A stretch of 32,941 nt of DNA. It comes from Endomicrobium sp. GTDB taxonomy: Bacteria; Elusimicrobiota; Endomicrobiia; Endomicrobiales; Endomicrobiaceae. Shown piece by piece: positions 2,716-30,777 of the stretch (position 1 is its first letter; every line of letters begins with the position of its first letter). Under the pieces are notes generated by a model that saw only the letters and a program-made list of their open reading frames with translations, was not told the origin of the DNA and ran no database searches. The DNA is taken from positions 1 to 32,941 of the forward strand of contig JAITND010000035.1 of NCBI GenBank assembly GCA_031290625.1. Reading direction: 5' to 3'. A program made the translations under genes and the position numbers.

Positions 2716-4461
2716 TTATCCTTCTTGTTTCATAAACAAATCAATCTCTTTTAAAATTGACTTACTATCTTCTAGTTTTAAAACTTTATCAGCCATAACA
2801 TTACAATCCGCAAAGGAAATACTTCTTATTATTTTTTTAATCGGCGCAATTTGCATCGGCGACACGCTGAATTCATCAAGCCCCATACCTAAAATAATAG
2901 GTGCAAATTTTGGATCTCCCGCCATTTCTCCGCACATGGCAACTTTTATTCCAGCTTTATGCCCTTCGTCAATAATACGTTTTATAAACCTCAAAATTGC
3001 CGGATGCATAGGGTCGTATAAATATGCGACATTTTCGTTAACTCTGTCCACCGCCAGCGTATATTGTATCAAATCATTGGTTCCTATTGATACAAAATCC
3101 ACTTCTTTTGCTATGGAATCAATCACCGCCACAGCCGACGGTACTTCTATCATGGCTCCAACTTCCATATTTTCATCAAACTTTATGTTTTCTTTTCCTA
3201 AATCTTCCTTTACTTTGTCAAGAATAGCATTTGCCGCCCTTAACTCTTCAAGCCCTGAAATCATTGGATACATCAATTTTACTTTTCCTAAAACAGAAGC
3301 CCTTAAGATAGCTCTCAACTGGCTTACAAATATTTCTGGATACTTAAGACACAATCTTATGGCTCTTAAGCCTAAAAACGGATTAGATTCGCCGCCAAGA
3401 TTTAATAACCCCATTTTGACAAGTTTGTCGCCGCCCAAGTCAAACGTCCTTATTGTCGCGGCATAAGGCAGCATTTGTTGCGCTACTTTAGAATATATAT
3501 CAAAATGTTCCTGTTCCGTAGGAATAGAATCGCGATTTAAATATATTACTTCTGTTCTGTAGAGACCTATGCCAGACGCTCCGTTATTCAAAATAATCGG
3601 CACTTCATCAAAATGATCAATATTGGCAAAGACAAAAACTTCATGTTTATCTGCAGTTTCCGCAGTTAAACTTTTAAGTTTTTTAGATTCTCTTGCGGCT
3701 GCCAATTGCAAAATATATTTATTTTTGTAATGTAGTAATGTTTCTTGAGAAGGATTTAATATAACTTCGCCTTTATCGCCGTCAACTATTATTTCTTCGC
3801 CAGTTTTAACAAGCGAAGATATATTTTTAAGCCCTACTACGGCAGGCATGGCAAGACCTTGAGCGATAATTGCCGTATGGTAAGTCTTGCCGCCTATATC
3901 CGTAGCAAAGCCTGAAATCTTCTTCCCTCTTACAGATACAGTATCAGCCGGAGTCAAATTGCGCGCGATAATAACGGAACCTTCGTCTAGTTTTGCAATA
4001 TTTTTTTCTTTCTTGCCAAAAAGATTTGTAAGAATTTTCCTGCCTACGGCTTGAATATCAACTTTTCTTTCTTTAAAAAAATCGTCATCTATATTCTCAA
4101 AAGAACGAACAATCTTATAAAGAACTTTAAAAAGAGCATATTCGGCATTGACCCCGTCGTCGATAAGTTTATACGCGTCTTCTCTTAACGCAGGATCATC
4201 TAAAATCAAAATATATACGTTTGCTATATTGGCGTAATTTTTCCCAAGGACGTCATTAATTTTACAGTACGTAACCTTGAATTCGCTTCTACTTTTCTCT
4301 ATAGCCTCGTCAAAACGTTTTCTTTCAGCTTCTCTAAAAGGTTTGGGAATTTCTTTGCGAATGAAATAAAAATCTTCTTCTTCGAGAAGAAAAACTTTCC
4401 CTATGGCAATCCCCGGAGATGCGGCAATCCCTTTTAAAATTATGTCTTTATCAACGAACAT
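2716..4461 (-). CDS. ptsI: PTS enzyme I (phosphoenolpyruvate-protein phosphotransferase)
   Basis: This 581-residue protein takes phosphate from PEP and passes it to HPr, the first step of the sugar phosphotransferase system. The N-terminal swivelling domain carries the phosphohistidine at His195 in GGKTYHTAI. The usual motif has Ser before the His, so Tyr194 is a deviation. The PEP-binding barrel is present with DLGGDKL, NPFLGLRAIR and SIGTNDLIQYTLAVDR, followed by a C-terminal CGEMAGDP segment. Length is normal for the family (about 570-580). The gene lies 8 bases after HPr (ptsH), as in classical pts operons, and directly before a Nudix gene. It would drive both the mannose-type IIABCD system and the PtsN-like IIA in this cluster. 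Confidence 0.96.
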   Translation of the reverse strand: MFVDKDIILKGIAASPGIAIGKVFLLEEEDFYFIRKEIPKPFREAERKRFDEAIEKSRSEFKVTYCKINDVLGKNYANIANVYILILDDPALREDAYKLIDDGVNAEYALFKVLYKIVRSFENIDDDFFKERKVDIQAVGRKILTNLFGKKEKNIAKLDEGSVIIARNLTPADTVSVRGKKISGFATDIGGKTYHTAIIAQGLAMPAVVGLKNISSLVKTGEEIIVDGDKGEVILNPSQETLLHYKNKYILQLAAARESKKLKSLTAETADKHEVFVFANIDHFDEVPIILNNGASGIGLYRTEVIYLNRDSIPTEQEHFDIYSKVAQQMLPYAATIRTFDLGGDKLVKMGLLNLGGESNPFLGLRAIRLCLKYPEIFVSQLRAILRASVLGKVKLMYPMISGLEELRAANAILDKVKEDLGKENIKFDENMEVGAMIEVPSAVAVIDSIAKEVDFVSIGTNDLIQYTLAVDRVNENVAYLYDPMHPAILRFIKRIIDEGHKAGIKVAMCGEMAGDPKFAPIILGMGLDEFSVSPMQIAPIKKIIRSISFADCNVMADKVLKLEDSKSILKEIDLFMKQEG

Positions 4462-4469
4462 GAACGCCC

Positions 4470-4733
4470 CTATTCGCTAAATTTTGAATTAAACAACCTT
4501 TCTATAGCGGCGATAGTCTCGCCTTCATCAGGACCGTCTACGACGAATTTTAATTTGCTTCCGCAAGCAGCGGCTAACGCCATAACACCCATTACGCTCT
4601 TAGCGTCAACCTCAAAATCATCTTTTAAAATTTTAACGCCTGATTGATATTTATTTAGAGTCTGCACGAGAGTCGCCGCGGGTCTTGCATGTAACCCCGA
4701 CTTATTTGAAACAACTATAATCTTTTCTTTCAT
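4470..4733 (-). CDS. ptsH: Phosphocarrier protein HPr
   Basis: This is an 87-residue HPr, the small carrier between enzyme I and the sugar-specific IIA proteins. His15, the phosphorylation site for enzyme I, is present in SGLHARPAA. Ser46 in AKSVMGVMAL, the site used by HPr kinase, is also present. Having both sites together with hprK in the same cluster indicates the regulatory circuit seen in Firmicutes and in several proteobacteria, where HPr-Ser-P controls PTS flux. It lies 3 bases after the IID gene and 8 bases before ptsI, in a continuous minus-strand set. The sequence is well conserved and looks functional. Confidence 0.96.
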   Translation of the reverse strand: MKEKIIVVSNKSGLHARPAATLVQTLNKYQSGVKILKDDFEVDAKSVMGVMALAAACGSKLKFVVDGPDEGETIAAIERLFNSKFSE

Positions 4734-4736
4734 TTT

Positions 4737-5507
4737 TTATATTCCCAAAAAAGACATTATTATACATATAGTTAAAACGGAAAACATAGAAAATAAAGGT
4801 CCAAATTTATTAGACGCAAAAAACGATAATAAGAAAATCGCTATATATGCAAATAAATCAATATCGCCTGAATTAAAAAGCCTGCTTTCGCTGCTAAAAC
4901 CAAAAACAGCCAAATATAGAGAAAAAGCCGCCAGAGCCATTACAAAAACTCCAAAACGAACAGAATCTGACATTGATTTAAAACGAGCCAAAGTTTTTAT
5001 ACTATTAGAAGAATATTTAAAACCTTCATATAGAAAACGAATCCTAGTTTTCAACTGCAAGAAATTGTAAAGCGATATGAAAATAATTGGCGCTAAAATA
5101 ATATATTCTGATCGTCTGTTGGCAAACATAACCATTATAAATATACTTAAAAATGACAACATCGGTCTAAGTTCTCCATAGAAAAAGGGATCGCCTATCG
5201 CTGCAAGAGGACCTGCCATATTGCTTTTAACTCTGTTCATATTGCATATTATCTCTTTGCGATTAGCTGGCTCCATTTTAGCTATTTCTTTCTCCATATT
5301 GACAACTATTCCCACTATTATACCAACCATATACGGTTGAAAATTAAAGTATCCTACGTGCCTTAAAAGAGCTTCTTTTTTTTCTTTTTCTACAGTGTAA
5401 AATCTGTCAAAAAATGGTCTTAATATAAAAACAAAACCTATATTTTGCATTCGCTCGTAATTCCACAATGCCTGCAGAAAAAAACTTCTTATGAAGACTT
5501 TAATCAT
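4737..5507 (-). CDS. PTS mannose-family IID component
   Basis: The 256-residue protein matches the IID subunit of mannose-family PTS permeases, which with IIC forms the membrane channel that takes up and phosphorylates the sugar. The N-terminal segment with SFFLQALWNYERMQNIGF is characteristic (family members have a similar F..Q..WNYE..Q..GF block). Next comes a cytosolic part with RHVGYFNFQPYM, and the protein ends in several hydrophobic segments. The conserved loop around GPLAAIGDPFFYG is intact. It overlaps the end of the IIC gene by 8 bases and is followed 3 bases later by ptsH. The sugar cannot be told from sequence; mannose/glucose, amino sugars and others are all possible. A mainly regulatory role is also possible. 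Confidence 0.93.
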   Translation of the reverse strand: MIKVFIRSFFLQALWNYERMQNIGFVFILRPFFDRFYTVEKEKKEALLRHVGYFNFQPYMVGIIVGIVVNMEKEIAKMEPANRKEIICNMNRVKSNMAGPLAAIGDPFFYGELRPMLSFLSIFIMVMFANRRSEYIILAPIIFISLYNFLQLKTRIRFLYEGFKYSSNSIKTLARFKSMSDSVRFGVFVMALAAFSLYLAVFGFSSESRLFNSGDIDLFAYIAIFLLSFFASNKFGPLFSMFSVLTICIIMSFLGI

Positions 5508-6141
5508 TTCCGGAATTCCCCAAAAACAAAACTCTTATATTGGTCATATTATACGCCGCTCCAAAACCTGCCGCTGGAAACAAATACCAAGCCTTTGCCA
5601 ACCCCGATAAAACATATTTTGGCAATTGCGCATAAATATCGCAAAACAGTTTACCTCCAATTGCGATAGCAAACAAATAAAACAAAAAAGCTCTTAAGAG
5701 AAAGAAAAGTAATCCTGACCAAATACCAATTTCTATACGCCAAATTTTAGCATCTTTAATACCGTCTCCCACCCAATGCATTATTTTAACGTTAAGCTTC
5801 CTTCCCAATATATCAATCCATCTATATAAATAAGCAAACGGAATTGCTAAAAGTATGCTCAAAATCGCCGCATCTTTAAAACCGGGGAAATACGCGCATG
5901 TCCAAAAAGTAGATAAAATGCCTATCATTGAAATATCTGGAATAACAGCTACTCCCATAGGAACAGTTTTTATCCAAAATAATTCCGATATAACGCCTAT
6001 GCAAAAACCCGTAATTACATCTCCTGCAAAAAAACCAATAATCGGAGCGCAAAATATGGGGCGATAAATCATAAACTGTCCAAAAGCCGTTATATCTGCG
6101 CTGCAGAAAGCCCCGATAAAAGAAACAAGAAAAATATTCAT
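5500..6141 (-). CDS. PTS mannose-family IIC component
   Basis: This 213-residue, very hydrophobic protein is the IIC membrane subunit of a mannose-family PTS permease. It shows the IIC pattern: an N-terminal segment with DITAFGQFMIYRPI, then GFFAGD and ELFWIKTVPMG, then several more membrane helices. It is shorter than Escherichia coli ManY (about 266), mainly through a trimmed loop and C-terminus, but no obvious break is visible. It begins 4 bases after the stop of a decayed glucanotransferase fragment and overlaps IID by 8 bases. The IIA and IIB genes lie on the far side of that fragment. Confidence 0.9.
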   Translation of the reverse strand: MNIFLVSFIGAFCSADITAFGQFMIYRPIFCAPIIGFFAGDVITGFCIGVISELFWIKTVPMGVAVIPDISMIGILSTFWTCAYFPGFKDAAILSILLAIPFAYLYRWIDILGRKLNVKIMHWVGDGIKDAKIWRIEIGIWSGLLFFLLRAFLFYLFAIAIGGKLFCDIYAQLPKYVLSGLAKAWYLFPAAGFGAAYNMTNIRVLFLGNSGND

Positions 6142-6145
6142 GATT

Positions 6146-6670
6146 TTACAATTCCTTTTGCTTCTTTAAATTTGCGCTTGTAGCAAAAGAAAACTTTTTA
6201 ACTTTGCCATGCTTGATTAAACATTTTACAAGAGGCAGCATAACAGCTCCTTGATAAGTTTTCTCAAAGCCATTGTCTGAATTTGAAACAGTTTCAACAG
6301 GATAAACAAAAACTTCGCTTTTTTCAGAAAATTTAACCTCTACTTCCATATTTAAATAACTATCGTATCTCTTCCATATATCGACATTTTTTAGAACTGA
6401 ACAATCATCTCCGCTTTTTGACGTAAAAGCAAAAATCTGTTCCGGAACAAAACAAATGTCTAAATTTTCATTTGAATTATTTTTTATTTCATACTTAACG
6501 TCATAACCATTGAGCGTAGGAAATATCTCTTTTGTAACTTCAACGGGTTTCCCGTCAACTTTTCCGTATCTGGAAAGAACGAGTCTTGAATTCTTTTTTA
6601 AAAATTTTCCGCTATGCTTTACTTGAGGCTCGTATTCTTTTATATGCCATAAAAATAAATTTAACTTTAC
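6146..6670 (-). pseudogene. C-terminal relic of a GH57-type glucanotransferase (DUF1926-like)
   Basis: A continuous open frame of 174 codons runs from just after the IIB stop codon (6671-6673) to TAA at 6146-6148, with no proper start codon. Its translation begins VKLNLFLWHIKEYEP and contains KVDGKPVEVTKEIF, VDIWKRYD and the strong block VYPVETVSNSDNGFEKTYQG. That block resembles the C-terminal beta domain (DUF1926) of GH57 4-alpha-glucanotransferases and alpha-amylases. The catalytic part, normally several hundred residues, is absent. I infer that a full glucanotransferase gene once lay between the PTS IIB and IIC genes and that a deletion removed its 5' part. The relic is in the same frame as IIB, separated only by TGA. 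An internal ATG at 6349 could give a 67-residue product, but this is unlikely to be a real gene. Confidence 0.75.
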
Positions 6671-7180
6671 TCATTTGTTCGCCTTGCAAACAGTTTGGTA
6701 TTCTTTTTCCAGCATATGGGTAATATCCATTTTTTCATCGTCCGGGAGAACTCTATTCTCTATTTCAATTCCTTTGGAATATATTTGACGCAAACTCTTA
6801 ATGTCTTCATCATCGACGCATATGTTATCCATTAACTGTTTTTTTCCCGTTATAAAATGCATTCCGCCAATATTTAAAGACTTGATTTTTAAACCTCTTT
6901 CCATCATATACGCAACGTCTGACGGATGCGTAGCTAAAACCATAATATTTTCTTTATCGTATTCTCCGTCAATTAGCGAAGTCGTCGCGCCTTTAAGAGT
7001 CTTCACGTCAAGCCTTATAGAAGTCGGCAAAGCCAACTTCATAAGAGTCTGTTGCATTTTATCGTTTGCAGCCGAATCCGAAATAACTAAAACGGCATCT
7101 ACATCAAGCGCTTTAAGCCAGCCTTGAACTATTTGCCCATGCACCAATCTGTCGTCTATTCTGATTAAAACTATAGCCAT
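6671..7180 (-). CDS. PTS mannose-family IIB component
   Basis: This 169-residue cytosolic protein is a mannose-family IIB. It receives phosphate from IIA on a histidine and hands it to the sugar. The active-site block IRIDDRLVHGQIVQGW is at residues 6-21, with the phospho-acceptor at His14. Further family features are the LVISD strand, the NIGGMHF block and the length (about 160). The start codon overlaps the stop of the IIA gene by one base (7180). The gene ends at a TGA directly followed, in the same frame, by the glucanotransferase relic. Nothing in IIB itself appears damaged. Confidence 0.95.
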   Translation of the reverse strand: MAIVLIRIDDRLVHGQIVQGWLKALDVDAVLVISDSAANDKMQQTLMKLALPTSIRLDVKTLKGATTSLIDGEYDKENIMVLATHPSDVAYMMERGLKIKSLNIGGMHFITGKKQLMDNICVDDEDIKSLRQIYSKGIEIENRVLPDDEKMDITHMLEKEYQTVCKANK

Positions 7181-7611
7181 TAAGGGTTACCTTTATAAAT
7201 TGCTTGATGCGCTTCTTCTAATACCCGTCTTATATTTGATATGCTTTTTTGCCCCTTAATCAACACCTTGTCAGCAAGTTCAGACAAATTTTTACGCGTT
7301 TTGCTTAACATTACCGCAGACAGTATCATCGGAAGATTTACGCCAGAAATAACTTCAACTTTTAAATCCGCGCATACGCACATCGCAGCGTTGCAAGGAG
7401 TGCCTCCAAACATATCGGCAAGAATCAAAACGCCGTCTTTATCGCTTATGTCTCTCAAAAGAGAGATGATACGCAAACGCATCTGTTCCAAACTATCGCT
7501 TGAACCGCGTTCGACAAAATAAAGATTAGGTTGATTGCCAAATATAGCCGCAGCGACGTTTACAAACTCAGAAGCTAAACCGCCATGGGACGCCACAATA
7601 ATTTTAATCAT
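7180..7611 (-). CDS. PTS mannose-family IIA component
   Basis: This is a 143-residue IIA domain of the mannose (ManX/AgaF-like) family, which accepts phosphate from HPr. His9 in the VASHGGLA motif is the expected phosphorylation site. ILADMFGGTPCNAA in the middle is the second conserved block. It is a stand-alone IIA, with IIB encoded by the next gene rather than fused. It sits 18 bases after rapZ and overlaps IIB by one base. Together with the IIB, IIC and IID genes further down it forms a full four-part permease, interrupted only by the glucanotransferase relic. Confidence 0.95.
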   Translation of the reverse strand: MIKIIVASHGGLASEFVNVAAAIFGNQPNLYFVERGSSDSLEQMRLRIISLLRDISDKDGVLILADMFGGTPCNAAMCVCADLKVEVISGVNLPMILSAVMLSKTRKNLSELADKVLIKGQKSISNIRRVLEEAHQAIYKGNP

Positions 7612-7629
7612 TTTTCCGTCTTAGAAGTT

Positions 7630-8511
7630 TCAGCAATTAATTTTCCCATTATTATAACACCTCAAAATATCTCTGTGGTTAAGCTTTACTTTATATTTTC
7701 TACTTTTCAAAAAAGCCGCCAGTTTTTCAGCGGTAAAAACAGATCTGTGGCGCCCGCCGGTACAACCTATTGCAACAGTTAAATAACTTTTCCCCTCTCT
7801 TATATAGTCCGGAAGAGTAATTTCTATAAGTTTTGAAAACGCATCAAAAAATACTTTGAATTCTTCCTGTTTTTCTATGTATTTTTGAACAGATTTATCG
7901 CGTCCCGTCTTATATTTTAACTCGTGTACATAATTAGGATTTGTTATAAAGCGCACATCGTAAACTATGTCGGCATCGTTTGGAATACCGTATTTATAGC
8001 CGAAAGATATAACTGAAATGTTTAAATATTGTTTTTCGGATCGGCAAATATTGGCAAGGATTGAAATTACTTTTTTTAACTCTCCTATAGTAAGATCAGA
8101 AGTATCGACAACCTCGTCGGCGACTCTAAAGATAGTATCCAAGATCTTTCTTTCATGCCCTATTCCCTCAGAAACCGATTTACCGCTAGGATGCCGGCGA
8201 CGCGTTTCTGAATAACGTTTTAGAATAATATCGTTGGCAGCATTAAAAAAGATAATCTTATAACTAACTTCTTTATTTTTTAAAACCGTAAGGAAATTCT
8301 TAAACCATGAAAGATGTTCTCCTGACCGGGAGTCTATGCTTATCGCAATGTTTTTATATTTTTTGGAATCTTTTATGCAGATGTCTATAAAATCAACTAT
8401 CATCTGAACAGGCATATTGTCAACGCAAACAAACCCAAAATCTTCAAAGATTTTGAGCGCTTGACTCTTACCCGCTCCCGACATGCCTGAAATTATATAT
8501 AATCTGATCAT
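7630..8511 (-). CDS. rapZ: RNase adapter RapZ / YvcJ-type nucleotide-binding protein
   Basis: The protein (293 residues) has an N-terminal P-loop domain with Walker A GMSGAGKS at residues 9-16. The C-terminal domain contains the family block GCTGGRHRSV near residues 245-260, as in RapZ/YvcJ (formerly UPF0042). In Escherichia coli RapZ senses glucosamine-6-phosphate and directs RNase E to the small RNA GlmZ; in Bacillus the relative YvcJ is a nucleotide-binding protein linked to competence. Which role applies here cannot be judged. It lies 4 bases after hprK and 18 bases before the IIA gene; the hprK-rapZ-PTS order is a widespread arrangement. The family length is about 285-295, so the gene is complete. 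Confidence 0.95.
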   Translation of the reverse strand: MIRLYIISGMSGAGKSQALKIFEDFGFVCVDNMPVQMIVDFIDICIKDSKKYKNIAISIDSRSGEHLSWFKNFLTVLKNKEVSYKIIFFNAANDIILKRYSETRRRHPSGKSVSEGIGHERKILDTIFRVADEVVDTSDLTIGELKKVISILANICRSEKQYLNISVISFGYKYGIPNDADIVYDVRFITNPNYVHELKYKTGRDKSVQKYIEKQEEFKVFFDAFSKLIEITLPDYIREGKSYLTVAIGCTGGRHRSVFTAEKLAAFLKSRKYKVKLNHRDILRCYNNGKINC

Positions 8512-8515
8512 GACT

Positions 8516-9451
8516 TTATATATTGTTTAGTTCTTTACGTAATGTAAAGTCTAACGCTTTAGCGGTAAAATGTCCTTTGTTTTTTAACCTTTGATTCAAA
8601 CTTGCCGTCTCAACAAGAACGGCAAGATTCCTTCCGGGCGCCACGGGAATTGTAATTTCAGGAACCTTAACGCCCAAATACTCCGTATAATAATCGTCAA
8701 GCCCGACTCTATCATACTTTTTAACCGGATCCCATTCTTCAAGTTTTATAACAAGTTCAATTTTGGAATCAGACAAAATGTTTCCTACGCCAAAAAGCTC
8801 TTTAACGTCTATAATGCCTATGCCTCTTACTTCTATTAAATGCTTCGTAATATCCAAACTGCTTCCTGTTAAAAATTGTCCTGAAGAGCGTTTTTTTATA
8901 TTAACTATGTCGTCGGCAATAAATTTGTGTCCTCTTTTAACAAGTTCAAGAGCGCACTCGGATTTACCTATAGCGGATTTACCTACAATTAAAATACCAA
9001 GACCATAAACGTTTGCCATAACGCCGTGTATTTTAATTGAAGGCGCGAGTTTGTCGTCTAAGTAATAACTTAAATCTCCAGCTACGGAAGACGACCTTAA
9101 GGTCGTCTTCAAAAGAGGCACGTCTAAATCTGAAAAAACTTTAAGCATAGCGTCCGTAGGTTTCAAATTTCTAGTTAAAATACAAGCTACAGATTTCTCA
9201 TCTGAAAAAATTTTAGCCAAAATTTTTATCTGCGAATCGTTATCCAAATGACTAAGATACGTATGTTCTATTATGCCTATAACCTGTATGCGCTCATATG
9301 GGAAATATTGTAAAAAGCCGGTTAACGCAAGACCAGGTCTATTTATATTTGGCACCGTAATACGCCTGCCAACTCCGCCTTTGCCGACTAACAGTTTTAG
9401 TTTGAAATCCTCGCCCTTCTCTTTAATAAGAGCGTATACGTCCATAGTCAT
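8516..9451 (-). CDS. hprK: HPr kinase/phosphorylase
   Basis: This enzyme of about 311 residues phosphorylates or dephosphorylates HPr at Ser46. Walker A GKSAIGKSE is at about residues 157-165, preceded by the IHGV histidine near 142. The acidic pair ADD at about 179-181 and the HprK signature EVRGIGIIDVKELFG at about 207-221 are present. The N-terminal domain is also complete. I place the start at ATG 9451, which shares a base with the TGA stop of the upstream ptsN-like gene (TGATG). A TTG three bases upstream and an ATG six bases downstream are other possibilities. The Ser46 target in HPr is intact, so the circuit is probably working. Confidence 0.95.
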   Translation of the reverse strand: MTMDVYALIKEKGEDFKLKLLVGKGGVGRRITVPNINRPGLALTGFLQYFPYERIQVIGIIEHTYLSHLDNDSQIKILAKIFSDEKSVACILTRNLKPTDAMLKVFSDLDVPLLKTTLRSSSVAGDLSYYLDDKLAPSIKIHGVMANVYGLGILIVGKSAIGKSECALELVKRGHKFIADDIVNIKKRSSGQFLTGSSLDITKHLIEVRGIGIIDVKELFGVGNILSDSKIELVIKLEEWDPVKKYDRVGLDDYYTEYLGVKVPEITIPVAPGRNLAVLVETASLNQRLKNKGHFTAKALDFTLRKELNNI

Positions 9452-9909
9452 CAATAAGCGTCCTCTTGCCGTATAAGTTTTACTACTTCTTGCGTAGTTT
9501 TAGCCGCTTTTATGGCTTGTCTTAAAAATTTATCTTTAAACAATCTTGAGATTCTTGATAAAGCCTTCAAATGTTGTCCAGCGACTTCAGCAGGTCCGAC
9601 TAAAAGGAAAATTATATGAACCAACTCTCCGTCAAGAGAATTAAATTCTATGCCTTTATGAGAAATACCAAGAACGCCCATTTGCTCCTGCAGGATATCG
9701 GTCTTCCCGTGAGGGATTGCAACTCCCTGTCCAATTCCGGTTGACCCGAGCTTTTCTCTTTCTAAAACAATATTTATTATATCATCGCTGTTTTTAATCT
9801 TTTTAGCGTTTTTTAAAACTTCAGCCAGTTCTATAATAGCCGACTTTTTGTCCGCCGCTTTCAGATCGACATTTATTGCGTCATGACTTAAAAAATCCAT
9901 AATCTTCAT
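9451..9909 (-). CDS. ptsN: PTS IIA-like nitrogen-regulatory protein (PtsN type)
   Basis: The 152-residue protein is a single IIA domain of the fructose/nitrogen-regulatory class. The phospho-acceptor is His67 in GVAIPHGK, with the usual lead-in REKLGSTGIGQG. A second conserved part, HIIFLLVGPAE...HLKALSRISRLF, follows. As a free-standing domain next to hpf and hprK it matches PtsN, which in proteobacteria regulates potassium, nitrogen and stress systems and lies near rpoN and hpf. No rpoN gene is present between lptB and hpf here. It lies 18 bases after hpf. A fructose-PTS transport role is less likely because no IIBC partner is nearby. Confidence 0.9.
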   Translation of the reverse strand: MKIMDFLSHDAINVDLKAADKKSAIIELAEVLKNAKKIKNSDDIINIVLEREKLGSTGIGQGVAIPHGKTDILQEQMGVLGISHKGIEFNSLDGELVHIIFLLVGPAEVAGQHLKALSRISRLFKDKFLRQAIKAAKTTQEVVKLIRQEDAY

Positions 9910-17839: not shown

Positions 17840-18781
17840 TCACCTTACCTCGCCCCTTATTTGCGAAATTTGAGCGTCTTTTTCTGCTATTATTTTTTCC
17901 AGACGCGATACTTCTTCACACGTAAGCCTAACTACTTTTGATATTCTTGATTGCATATCATCATTTTGTAGTTCCATTTCATTAATTTGTTTACGTAATT
18001 GTATGTTAGCTACTTTTGATATTCCTAACATAGTCGCCAATTTGCATCCTAACATATTAAATCTATTTATTCTTGCTACTTGACTTTCTCTTGCTTCTCT
18101 TTCTTCTTGTACTTGTTGTTGTAACCGTAACCGCGCTACTTCTACTTCTTCTTTTGCTTGGTTTACTTGCACCAATTCTCTGCTATTTTGCACTTCTAAC
18201 CGCGCTACTTGTTGCACACTATTTGCTTCTCTTAATTGCACTAATTCTTGTTGTAACCGCACTACTTGCGATCTTAACTGTTCTACTTCTTCTTCTTTTG
18301 CTTGGTTTACTCGCACCAATTCTCTGCTATTTCGCGCTTCTAACCGCGCTGCTTGCGCGTTATTTGCTTCTCTTACTTGCGGTTGTCTTTTTTGGAAGTC
18401 TGATCCTAGGAAGTCTAATCCTAGTGGACTTGCTTCTACTAGATCTTCTCGTGGAGCTTCTACAATTATTGCTCCTGGCGGCACGATTCCTTGTGATGGT
18501 TGCGGGTTCATCATAAGTGATGCGAAGCGTCCACCACCCAATGATGTTCCATCAAGCGATGTAATTGGCATTCCTTCAAACGGCGTAGTTGGGACTGATG
18601 AAGTAAGCGGTGGATGACTTCCAAATAATCCATGAGTTAAAGATCTGAATATTGAACCGCCATTACGCCCATGCAACTGGATGCCTTTCAGTTGAGCTTG
18701 CCCTTCAGCAACAAAAACAAACAAACTTAATGTCATCGCCAAAAGAGTAATTTTTAATACTTTATTGCCATATTTTTTCAT
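17840..18781 (-). CDS. Exported coiled-coil protein with internal duplication
   Basis: I cannot name this 313-residue protein. It has a signal peptide (MKKYGNKVLK, hydrophobic core, then VAEGQAQ near residue 30). Residues 31-130 are rich in Gly, Pro and Ser and probably unstructured. Residues about 135-235 are a Glu/Arg/Gln-rich coiled coil built from two copies of a 47-residue unit starting REAN at 137 and 184, each carrying a NSRELV-x-VNQAKEE core. A shorter coiled coil follows at about 260-310 (IQLRKQINEMELQ, EVSRLEKIIAEK). A ribosome site GGAG lies 8 bases before the ATG. It is likely a periplasmic or surface structural protein; the duplication suggests its length can evolve by repeat gain or loss. 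Confidence 0.7.
   Translation of the reverse strand: MKKYGNKVLKITLLAMTLSLFVFVAEGQAQLKGIQLHGRNGGSIFRSLTHGLFGSHPPLTSSVPTTPFEGMPITSLDGTSLGGGRFASLMMNPQPSQGIVPPGAIIVEAPREDLVEASPLGLDFLGSDFQKRQPQVREANNAQAARLEARNSRELVRVNQAKEEEVEQLRSQVVRLQQELVQLREANSVQQVARLEVQNSRELVQVNQAKEEVEVARLRLQQQVQEEREARESQVARINRFNMLGCKLATMLGISKVANIQLRKQINEMELQNDDMQSRISKVVRLTCEEVSRLEKIIAEKDAQISQIRGEVR
18091..18373 (-). repeat. Tandem 141-base (47-residue) coding repeat
   Basis: The coiled-coil gene contains two diverged copies of a 141-base unit beginning at 18373 and 18232 on the minus strand. Each encodes REAN followed by a RLE-x-x-NSRELV-x-VNQAKEE core. The second copy fades toward its end. Confidence 0.7.
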
Positions 18782-21761: not shown

Positions 21762-23729
21762 TTACTTTTGCACCGCTATCTTTTTTACTTGTTTATTTCC
21801 TAGCAGGGTTTTTACAACTACAAAATAAACTCCGGGGGCTATACGGTTTCCGTCTTGATTTCTTAAATCCCATTTTACCATTCTTCTTTTTTCCGCCGCA
21901 TACGTCTCTTCAGTTAAATCGCTTGCGTCAAAAGATTTTACAAACTCGCCTGTTACCGTATAAACGTTTATATTTATTACATCTGTGTGAAAAGGAAGAT
22001 TTGTTATCTTTATATAATCTTTTACGCTTATGCTTACAGGATTTGGATAACAAACAAAATCGCCAATATTATTTGGAGGTATAAGACCTAAATTTAAAAC
22101 AAGTTTGCCTTTGCCGTAAGTATTGTCAGGAGAAGATTGTATTTGTTTTGCATAACCGACGACTTGATTTTTTAAATCAGCGACAGTTGTTCCGGTACTT
22201 AAACTTAACAATAAAGCGGCGGCTCCGGCAACGTGAGGAACTGCCGCAGAAGTCCCTCCAAAGCTTTTATACCCGCGCGAAGCTGTGGTAACGCCCGTAG
22301 GCGCGACTATTTCAGGTTTTAAAAGGAATGGATTGCGCACAGGTCCTCTGGAACTATAATACGCTATAGGACCTGAACCATAATTTGAAACATTTACAGC
22401 TCCAACAGTTAAAGCCTTGCGCGCATCCGCAGGCATACATAAAGATGACTCGGGGTTTCTATCAATAGGATTTTCAACAACGTCCCCCGACGGATTTTTT
22501 TTGGAAAATATTAATCTCATACATCTTCCGTTTCCGTCTCGCTTTCTATCTTTATTCTTCTGAATTTTTATTTTTAACCTATTAGGGCGAATATGGTTAT
22601 TAAACGTAACATTTGTCGCCCTATTATCTACGAAATTCGTACGACCTATAAATGCATCATCTTGCTTATATACAAATATGTCATAACTGCTATTTCCCAT
22701 ATTATTATAATCGTCCCACATTAAAGTAATATCCGCATTTGCGGGAACATTAACATCCAAATATTCGCTTCCGTTGGGAAACTTTGTAAAGTTTGTTTCA
22801 GATTTTTGAAAAGTTCCAAACCATGAACAGTCGGCTTCATTCCCAGCCGCAATAACAGATAAAAATTTGCCTCCATCAAAACCTTTATCAATACTCGCAT
22901 CTATACCATCCAAACCTGCCATAAAACTTAACGGAATACCAAAACCTACAGAACAACTTACAATTTTTATTTTTTCATCCGAACAATACTTCAACGCGTT
23001 TTGAAACTCTACTATATTAGCAATTTTACATAAATACATTTTAGCTCCCGGAGCTATATCGTAAACTATTTCAGCGCATGCAGAACCGTGAATATCGCCG
23101 ACAGCTGAATTTATGGGCTGCCGATCAGCCGTAAAATCAACAGCAATAAGATTAGCGGAGGGCGGAAGCTCTCCGCGGTTTTGTAAATCTAAATAACCTC
23201 TAAAACCTTTATCTATAACGGCAATTTTTACGCCGGCTCCGTCAACGCCGTCTAAAACAAATTTAGCAGCGTTGATTGCATCTCTGCCTTCGCTGACAGT
23301 TTCCATAGGTTTCGCATGGTCGCTTATATCCGCATAGTATACGCCCGATACCTTTTCAAGCTCTGGTATCAGATCTATAGGGACATACGCTATAAAGAAA
23401 CTTTTTGATTTAACATATTCTATATTGCGCGCAATAAAAAAACTTGTATCCGCATTATCAGAGTCGCCGTCAACCGGATAAAAAATAACTTCAACTTTAC
23501 CGTCCAAATGAGAATCATCAGGGGTTTCAACAGATTGTTCTTGTTCGGAAACGCCTTTAAGGTAACCATGAACTTCATCTTTTGATGAAAACGCAGCGTC
23601 AGTAGCACGCCATTGTTCTTTTACAGAAGCATTTTTTAGGCGTTCTGTTATAACAATACCTGAGGCATAAGATAGGAAAACGACTAAAACAACCAAAACA
23701 GACTGGATTTTAAACCTTATATTTCTCAT
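21762..23729 (-). CDS. Exported subtilisin-like (S8) protease with C-terminal sorting-type domain
   Basis: This 655-residue protein starts with a signal peptide or anchor (hydrophobic residues 9-27). The peptidase S8 domain covers about 155-515. The catalytic triad is Asp173 (IAVIDKGF), His214 (GDIHGSACAE) and Ser494 (FGGTSAAVPHVAG), and the oxyanion Asn is 297 (AAGNEAD). A region of about 150 residues between Asn297 and the Ser motif could be an inserted beta domain. The last 95 or so residues (CYPNPVS, VYTVTGEFVKSF, KWDLRNQDGNRIAPGVYFV) match the FlgD-like/type IX sorting-type C-terminal domain. It shares 4 bases with the upstream PorV-like gene. The role may be secreted or surface proteolysis. 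Confidence 0.88.
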   Translation of the reverse strand: MRNIRFKIQSVLVVLVVFLSYASGIVITERLKNASVKEQWRATDAAFSSKDEVHGYLKGVSEQEQSVETPDDSHLDGKVEVIFYPVDGDSDNADTSFFIARNIEYVKSKSFFIAYVPIDLIPELEKVSGVYYADISDHAKPMETVSEGRDAINAAKFVLDGVDGAGVKIAVIDKGFRGYLDLQNRGELPPSANLIAVDFTADRQPINSAVGDIHGSACAEIVYDIAPGAKMYLCKIANIVEFQNALKYCSDEKIKIVSCSVGFGIPLSFMAGLDGIDASIDKGFDGGKFLSVIAAGNEADCSWFGTFQKSETNFTKFPNGSEYLDVNVPANADITLMWDDYNNMGNSSYDIFVYKQDDAFIGRTNFVDNRATNVTFNNHIRPNRLKIKIQKNKDRKRDGNGRCMRLIFSKKNPSGDVVENPIDRNPESSLCMPADARKALTVGAVNVSNYGSGPIAYYSSRGPVRNPFLLKPEIVAPTGVTTASRGYKSFGGTSAAVPHVAGAAALLLSLSTGTTVADLKNQVVGYAKQIQSSPDNTYGKGKLVLNLGLIPPNNIGDFVCYPNPVSISVKDYIKITNLPFHTDVININVYTVTGEFVKSFDASDLTEETYAAEKRRMVKWDLRNQDGNRIAPGVYFVVVKTLLGNKQVKKIAVQK

Positions 23730-24640
23730 TTAAATTCTACTCTAAGAGAAAATACGCTCATATTGCCAAGCTCGCCGTATGGAAGCCATGCGTAATCTAT
23801 TGAAATTGTTTTCTTTATGTTTATTCCAAACCCAAACGACAAATTTCTTTTATACCATTCCCCAAGAGAATTATTATTGTTATTGATTGGACAGCTATAT
23901 CCGCCTCTTAAAAAAAACACTTGGTCTCTGTTAATCTCAAAAGCGCCTTTAAGCTGTATTATTCCGTCAAAAAAAGTTTTCAATTCAAAACCAATATCAA
24001 AAGATTCGTCTAAACTATTTTTGTAAGAAATATACGCGTTGCATGGTAAATTGTATTTATCCGCTTTAAATCCAACATTTTCCAATCCGCCGGATAAAGA
24101 CCAGTAAGCGCTTGGTAAATACAAAACCGCAAGATCAATAGCCATACCCGAAAGAGAACCGCCGTCAATATTATTCTTAACGTATTTCATACCGGCACCG
24201 GCAATAACTTCTTTGGAAATTTGCCGTCCGGCATTTATCTGCGCGCAGGAATCGTCAGCGCTAAAAAAACCGTCTTTTACATAGTCCCCATCGGAAGCCT
24301 CTATTGTTCTATCCATATTGCCATAATCCAAACCGTCGTACATAATACTTAAAACGGCTTGTTTTATAGGAACTGCAAAATAAACGCTATTGTACGACAC
24401 GTCTTGAAAATGCGAGGCGTGAGTTGCTTGAATATTATATTTATCTACTAATCCCAAGACCGCGGGATTTGGCATAGAAGCGTTCTTCCCAAATGATGAC
24501 ATTGAAGCAAGAGACGCTTGAATCGCATTTTTTGGAAGTTTTAAAAAATCAAAGACAGTCATTCCCGAAGCTGCGGGAAACGCTTTATTTAAAAACAAAA
24601 TAAAGACCGACAAGACAATAAAAAAAAATTTTTTAGTCAC
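23726..24640 (-). CDS. PorV/PorQ-like outer-membrane beta-barrel protein
   Basis: The 304-residue protein starts at a GTG, with a signal peptide (MTKKFFFIVLSVFILF to FPAAS). Its remainder shows alternating beta strands with aromatic girdles, ending in VFSLRVEFK with a terminal aromatic, as outer-membrane barrels do. The early pattern (residues 35-65: asymmetric small-residue stretch, NPAVLGLV, then strands beginning YNIQATHASHF) is that of the PorV/PorQ family within the FadL-like superfamily. In Bacteroidota PorV works with type IX secretion to deliver proteins with C-terminal sorting domains. The next gene encodes just such a protein and overlaps by 4 bases. The family call is from pattern recognition and was not verified. 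Confidence 0.7.
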   Translation of the reverse strand: MTKKFFFIVLSVFILFLNKAFPAASGMTVFDFLKLPKNAIQASLASMSSFGKNASMPNPAVLGLVDKYNIQATHASHFQDVSYNSVYFAVPIKQAVLSIMYDGLDYGNMDRTIEASDGDYVKDGFFSADDSCAQINAGRQISKEVIAGAGMKYVKNNIDGGSLSGMAIDLAVLYLPSAYWSLSGGLENVGFKADKYNLPCNAYISYKNSLDESFDIGFELKTFFDGIIQLKGAFEINRDQVFFLRGGYSCPINNNNNSLGEWYKRNLSFGFGINIKKTISIDYAWLPYGELGNMSVFSLRVEFK

Positions 24641-29810: not shown

Positions 29811-30777
29811 ATGCCGGATTTGGAAAAGCCTGACAATCAAAATGATAACGCCCAAAGCGACAATAGCCAGGAGCAAAATATAATAGGGCCGCCTGAACAT
29901 CTGTCTCAACAAGACGATAACTCCGCCCCGCAATAACAAACATCTCAAGAAAATAAAGAATCCATTTCTTACGAAAACCGCTTGCGCAAAAATGAACCGC
30001 CTAAAGAACCAACTGTCCATGAAAAAAATTCTTTACTAAACGACTTAAAAAACAAATTAGCCAATTATAGATGCAATAATAAAAAAAGCAAGACAAAACA
30101 GCGACGCCAAAATAGAAGAAAGCAAACAAGAAATTCCTAATCAAGAGCCAAATGCTCCCAAAGCTCGGGAAGCTATTCAAATCGCTCCGCAACAAGAAGA
30201 AGCTATACAACCAGAAAACGGCGGAATCGGTCCAAACAATCCAATTCAAGACGAAACGCAAAATATACAACTCGCGACTCAACAACCGCCGGAAGAAAAA
30301 CCTAAAGATGAACCGAAACAAACTGAAACCAACGAGTCCGCGGCAAATAGCGCGATCCCTTCCGACGAAACGCAAGAAAAACATAACAATGCGGTTGAAC
30401 AAACCGCAACGCCTCGACCTGAATTAAAACCTGAAGAAATTAAACAACCGCCTTATTGCGAACCTGAACAAAAACATGAAAACATTACGCCGATAACGCA
30501 AGAAACGCCTCAAACTGCGACGGCTGCTCCGCAAAAAGACTATTCCAACATTACAACTTTTGGAGAAGCTGACGACGCGGCTTTTGCAGATTTTGGAAAA
30601 ACAATTGAGCTGAACCAAAAATTTGGCGGAGGATACGCGGGAATAGCAAAAATATACGCCAACCGCGGAGATAAAGAAAAAGCCGTTGAAAACTACGCTC
30701 TTTCCAAAAAGCACGACATGAAATATTCAAAGATCGCAGATGTTGAAATAAAAGCTCTTTCAACGTCTTCTTCTTAA
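29811..30777 (+). pseudogene. Pro/Gln/Glu-rich protein with C-terminal TPR-like repeat, broken by a stop and a frameshift
   Basis: An ATG at 29811 with AAGGA 6 bases upstream opens a frame that reads 41 residues (ending QDDNSAPQ) and meets TAA at 29934-29936. The same frame continues coherently (SQENKESISYENRLRKNEPP) to near 30060, after which the sensible reading moves to the next frame. That frame runs without a break to TAA at 30775-30777. The likely slip point is near the run of seven A at 30081-30087. The middle is low-complexity (Pro, Gln, Glu, Asn). The last 75 or so residues (DDAAFADFGKTIELNQKF, GGYAGIAKIYANRGDKEKAV) look like a TPR helix pair. It would have been about 320 residues. 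The stop is a CAA-like position changed to TAA. Function is unknown. Confidence 0.7.

Follow-up and report, generated by a model that had tools for sequence, protein, structure and literature searches.

The PTS operon and the remains of a GH57 gene

The window, meaning the whole stretch of 32,941 nucleotides that was analysed, comes from a bacterium related to the symbionts of termite-gut protists (genome G000). It contains a PTS gene cluster with the order HPF–PtsN–HprK–RapZ–IIA–IIB–GH57–IIC–IID–HPr–EI, in which the GH57 gene is mostly deleted and both of its ends are left. The other genes were assigned with Pfam, and every PTS gene of the window was full length in that analysis.

2716..4461, minus strand: Enzyme I (PF02896, PF05524 and PF00391)
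4470..4733, minus strand: HPr (PF00381)
4737..5507, minus strand: PTS IID (PF03613), intact
5500..6141, minus strand: PTS IIC (PF03609), intact
6671..7180, minus strand: PTS IIB (PF03830), intact
7180..7611, minus strand: PTS IIA (PF03610), intact
7630..9909, minus strand: RapZ, HPr kinase and PtsN, the remainder of the conserved cluster (Pfam and relatives)

PMC11257099 describes this PTS as a mannose-type glucose PTS that is preserved in most Endomicrobiellum lineages. E. proavitum grew on glucose and not on mannose or fructose, as cited in PMC8809381.

The following features were found between IIB and IIC.

6671..6674, minus strand: ATGA, the native GH57 start ATG (6674-6672) over the IIB stop TGA (6673-6671)
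6651..6674, minus strand: retained GH57 N-terminal codons 1-8, MSKVKFIF (translation; alignment with G025, G008, G034 and G012)
6640..6650, minus strand: 11-base internal scrap, codons 29-32 of the intact gene (exact 11-base match to G025)
6612..6674, minus strand: 20-codon frame from the native start, then a stop (translation)
6149..6639, minus strand: native C-terminal part of a GH57 4-alpha-glucanotransferase, about codons 537-699, open, without the native start (PF09095, G025)
6153..6159, minus strand: AAAAGGA, putative IIC ribosome-binding site within the last codons of the relic (inferred)
6146..6148, minus strand: native GH57 stop TAA (alignment)

A previous sequence-only reading of this DNA had reported that the frame of IIB stays open behind its stop and encodes a DUF1926-like tail of a GH57 enzyme. 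Both points were confirmed. Downstream of the IIB stop TGA (6671-6673, minus strand), 174 further codons were open in the frame of IIB, up to the TAA at 6146-6148. The Pfam search matched the translated tail to PF09095 (AmyA-gluTrfs_C) with an E value of 2.1e-18 and 67.4 bits (cut-off, 22 bits), at profile positions 132-272 of 284, about half of this C-terminal domain model. The tail also aligned with codons 536-699 of the intact G025 gene (match 6152-6643, 81% identity, E 7.9e-85). In the whole genome (1.18 Mb, 55 contigs), PF09095 was matched only once, at the relic. NCBIfam gave no family for the tail or for the intact protein. When the bases of the stretch were shuffled, the whole tail frame was kept open in 0 of 5000 shuffles.

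Compared with intact relatives, the window copy lacks codons 9-28 and about 33-536, approximately 1.57 kb of 2.1 kb or about three quarters of the gene. The catalytic part was thus deleted as proposed: the PF03065 domain with the nucleophile Glu and the acid/base Asp is gone. The first deletion measures 60 bases in G025 terms and is in frame; the second junction, to about codon 537, is out of frame. The tail had been placed exactly behind IIB, which was not borne out, as the native start, eight codons and the 11-base scrap intervene. Of the 174 codons, the first ~10 are not native; they consist of the old N-terminal codons and the internal scrap read in the wrong frame. Judged from the alignment, the tail shares the frame of IIB by chance, and it is out of frame with the native start. 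The tail had also been described as having no start codon; this is correct for its own frame, but the native ATG (6674-6672) survives in another frame.

The ATGA overlap was assigned from the coordinates of the IIB and GH57 matches and the alignment with G025, G008, G034 and G012. In all nine full-length copies of the genus (9/9), the GH57 match starts on the base with which the IIB match ends. The GH57 gene was probably once translationally coupled to IIB through this overlap. At present, ribosomes finishing IIB would restart at most on the 20-residue frame, for which no function is expected. A purine run resembling AAAAGGA was observed at the equivalent place in G012, G025, G008 and G034. 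A IIC ribosome-binding site within the relic end would be a reason for keeping its last bases, not the remainder.

The open frame and the possibility of a protein product

The sequence-only reading had suggested that the tail might be made by stop-codon read-through. Continued production of the tail, as a read-through extension of IIB or from an internal start, with some residual role, would agree with the register of the 174-codon frame with IIB and with a dN/dS below 1. We consider it very improbable. The number of open codons behind the IIB stop was 174 in the window and 0-51 in the other 21 genomes examined from the genus (n = 22), and a long frame in 1 of 22 genomes makes read-through unlikely. 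The tail of the sister genome G012 carries a frameshift and a TAA, and the piece left in the window covers about half of its domain model. The tail is probably not produced as protein, as far as can be judged from the DNA.

Between the window and G012, 116 shared codons of the tail contained 7 synonymous and 7 nonsynonymous differences, giving a dN/dS of 0.24 with small counts. The corresponding values for IIB and IIC were 0.18 and 0.12. The tail value is not clearly neutral, but constraint predating the loss would give such a value as well. The changes on the window branch were few, 3 synonymous and 5 nonsynonymous; those on the G012 branch were 3 and 1, plus a stop.

The absence of stops had been taken as a sign of a recent loss. 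Recency was supported, but the open frame itself is little evidence for it, and it argues little for a protein product either. About 5% of the single substitutions in the tail create a stop, so that an open frame is expected two thirds of the time after about eight changes (about 66% of 8-substitution sets were stop-free).

The same locus across Candidatus Endomicrobiellum

We searched 41 genomes of the genus, all drafts and mostly MAGs, with the intact G025 GH57 protein, IIB and IIC. The bacteria of this genus are described as endosymbionts of termite-gut flagellates (PMC11257099). The genomes had the following states.

Full-length GH57 between IIB and IIC, 9/41: G004, G008, G015, G018, G021, G024, G025, G029 and G059
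GH57 cut by a contig end, 1/41: G022, with the last 328 codons
GH57 relic, 9/41: G000 (this genome), G010, G012, G014, G017, G019, G034, G060 and G063
IIB and IIC without a GH57 trace, 9/41: G001, G003, G005, G011, G013, G023, G061, G062 and G064
No match to IIB, IIC or GH57, 13/41

The intact gene between IIB and IIC in nine relatives bore out the proposal that the PTS locus once included an alpha-glucan enzyme. The relic has the features of a unitary pseudogene: an intact orthologue lies at the same place in relatives, and disabling deletions are present relative to that orthologue. A conserved short stand-alone gene was also considered and rejected; the relatives have frames of 690-715 codons (the full-length copies), different wrecks or nothing.

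The sister G012 (92% identity in IIB and 96% in IIC) has its own deletions, a 1-base deletion and an in-frame TAA, and none of its lesions (0) is common with the window, indicating that the visible lesions are younger than the split of both. An older lesion, since deleted, could have preceded this split. The losses of GH57 were counted by Dollo parsimony on a FastTree phylogeny of five cluster proteins, with some data missing. The count was 9 when the full tree was used, 8 at a node support of 0.5 or 0.8, 7 at 0.9 or 0.95, and 5 at 0.99. By this count, Candidatus Endomicrobiellum has had at least five independent losses.

With draft genomes, most of them MAGs, one junction could be an assembly error for the window copy alone. 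That the real genome has an intact gene, collapsed in a contig of this 55-contig draft, is hardly credible. With the G025 protein as query, the genome gave matches only on C31 and, to a weak paralogue, on C17, so the missing part was not found elsewhere in the assembly. The close sister G012 was assembled separately and carries a broken copy of its own, and eight genomes of the genus besides this one have decayed at the same place.

IIB and IIC contained stops in 0 of 9 genomes with the full GH57 gene, and they were unbroken in 8 of 9 genomes without a GH57 trace (exception, G061). PTS genes were retained in five of the relic genomes (G000, G012, G019, G034 and G060). The enzyme was seemingly lost first, since IIB and IIC have no stop beside any full GH57 gene and the PTS is kept in five relic genomes. 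In G010 (L213), G014 (L121), G017 (L042) and G063 (L122), PTS genes are broken too beside GH57 scraps, which is a later stage of decay.

The intact enzyme and the glycogen genes

The intact orthologue has PF03065, PF09094 and PF09095 domains (TLGT type). Its sole PDB relative was 1k1w, the 4-alpha-glucanotransferase of Thermococcus litoralis; the two aligned over 670 residues (E 7e-126). Glu123 and Asp214 of 1k1w, presumably its catalytic residues, aligned with E and D of the intact orthologue, so that both presumed catalytic positions are kept. Unlike 1k1w, the window keeps only the last ~163 and the first 8 codons, and the Endomicrobiellum gene sits in a PTS operon.

Of the 10 genomes with intact GH57, 8 had an unbroken glycogen synthase (PF08323) and 7 an unbroken glycogen phosphorylase (PF00343); among the 31 others, each count was 0. 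In the better genomes (completeness of 90% or more, contamination of 5% or less, n = 14), synthase was unbroken in 6/6 genomes with intact GH57 and 0/8 without. Fisher tests of the association of synthase with GH57 gave p values of 4.7e-7 and 3.3e-4, which ignore kinship and overstate the case, as the genomes are related and not independent trials. More weight was given to close contrasts, in which GH57 and synthase decayed together: G008/G034, G025 versus G012 and G000, and G024/G017. Broken synthase genes were found in G012, G017 and G034, all relic genomes, and the G034 phosphorylase is split. Exceptions that retain GH57 were G021 (52% complete), without a synthase or phosphorylase match; G022 (69%), without synthase; and G059 (87%), without a phosphorylase match and with a full-length GH57 gene.

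Glycogen synthase and phosphorylase were not found in the genome of the window. It has two other, broken GH57 genes, on C48 (L203) and C17 (L204), and contig C19 ends in a long open piece of a third (L205). The pieces on C48 and C19 are related to the relic's gene. The open piece on C19 means that alpha-glucan capacity may persist in part.

The G025 phosphorylase (L209, C2) contains one in-frame TGA, while GH57 and synthase are intact there. G025 is perhaps the next lineage losing glycogen, or the TGA is a sequencing error.

The relic had been expected to identify the sugar served by the PTS. If the enzyme served the imported sugar, its loss would reflect a change of substrate. The operon position fits this, and the PTS is taken to import glucose, (PMC11257099 and PMC8809381), and glucose is the building unit of alpha-glucans. 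This explanation is unlikely. IIB and IIC were unbroken without the enzyme in the five PTS-retaining relic genomes and 8 of 9 trace-free genomes, and the losses of GH57 track the glycogen genes. As the PTS stays and outlives GH57, the enzyme gene is a poor guide to the sugar of the PTS.

We are confident that the stretch is instead a recent pseudogene of a GH57 4-alpha-glucanotransferase, formerly a member of the PTS operon, that decayed together with glycogen metabolism. Two deletions in this lineage removed ~1.57 kb, including all of the catalytic domain except the first codons. The enzyme would have shortened or remodelled the glycogen made by the cell itself, alongside glucose uptake by the PTS. 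With life inside a flagellate and the end of glycogen storage, selection on GH57 would have ended while the PTS was still needed.

As a kind, the pseudogene is ordinary. Like pseudogenes of reduced endosymbionts, including Endomicrobiellum, it shows stepwise deletions, frameshifts and stops once the bacteria are host-bound, with no difference in kind; the useful part is its repeated co-loss with glycogen genes. The relatives give a graded series for one gene at one site: intact, freshly broken, scraps and gone. The series suggests that glycogen storage is abandoned before sugar uptake once the bacteria turn intracellular. In the papers searched, we found neither this gene nor its connection with the glycogen genes. 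Glycogen is not mentioned in the main texts of PMC11257099 and PMC8809381, as far as available, and among the non-subscription papers searched none was listed that deals with GH57 genes, or genes of glycogen metabolism, in this PTS operon.

The PTS cluster outside the genus

PF09095 was found in 21 of 24 genomes outside the genus. All 21 genes (21/21) lie within the same PTS cluster; HPr was seen in 20 and EI in 19, and the misses are early contig ends (both genes in G047, EI in G035). GH57 lies between IIB and IIC in 19 of 21, directly in 15 and with an extra gene in 4 (G044, G047, G054 and G057). IIB and IIC were undetected in the other two PF09095 genomes, G048 and G056. The arrangement with GH57 between IIB and IIC is ancient.

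In G044, G047, G054, G056 and G057, the immediate upstream neighbour of the glucanotransferase is a glycogen branching enzyme of the GH57 family, with PF03065 and PF09210 (L216:3874-5496, L219:2484-4145, L224:3563-5263, L226:8208-9923 and L225:8218-9951). In 4 of these 5 deeper-branching genomes, it is placed between IIB and the glucanotransferase. When the G054 branching enzyme was compared with solved structures, the matches were GH57 enzymes. A branching enzyme beside the glucanotransferase indicates that the PTS cluster is a glycogen cluster as well, giving a phylum-wide, operon-level tie between the PTS and glycogen enzymes.

In E. coli, HPr binds glycogen phosphorylase, and the PTS controls glycogen metabolism (PMC11046441). 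A similar functional tie of PTS parts to glycogen enzymes would exist here. Unlike the binding by E. coli HPr, the tie here is the operon membership of GH57 enzymes. The chances are about even that the PTS operon of Elusimicrobiota is a module for glucose uptake and glycogen, made up of the PTS and the GH57 glucanotransferase and, in deeper lineages, the GH57 branching enzyme too, perhaps under joint PTS/HprK control, and that Endomicrobiellum lineages, on turning intracellular, repeatedly lost the glycogen arm and then the PTS. If this is true, decay has followed one order several times, and the window shows a recent step of it.

Two further observations concern the window. Open frames without a Pfam match, all on the minus strand, lie at 632-949, 17840-18781, 23726-24640, 30001-30402 and 30424-30714. 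In G008, RapZ and IIA are separated by a CofD/YvcK-like gene (PF01933; L033:4873-5817); the RapZ/IIA gap of the window has only 18 bases (7612-7629), indicating that this gene was lost or moved.
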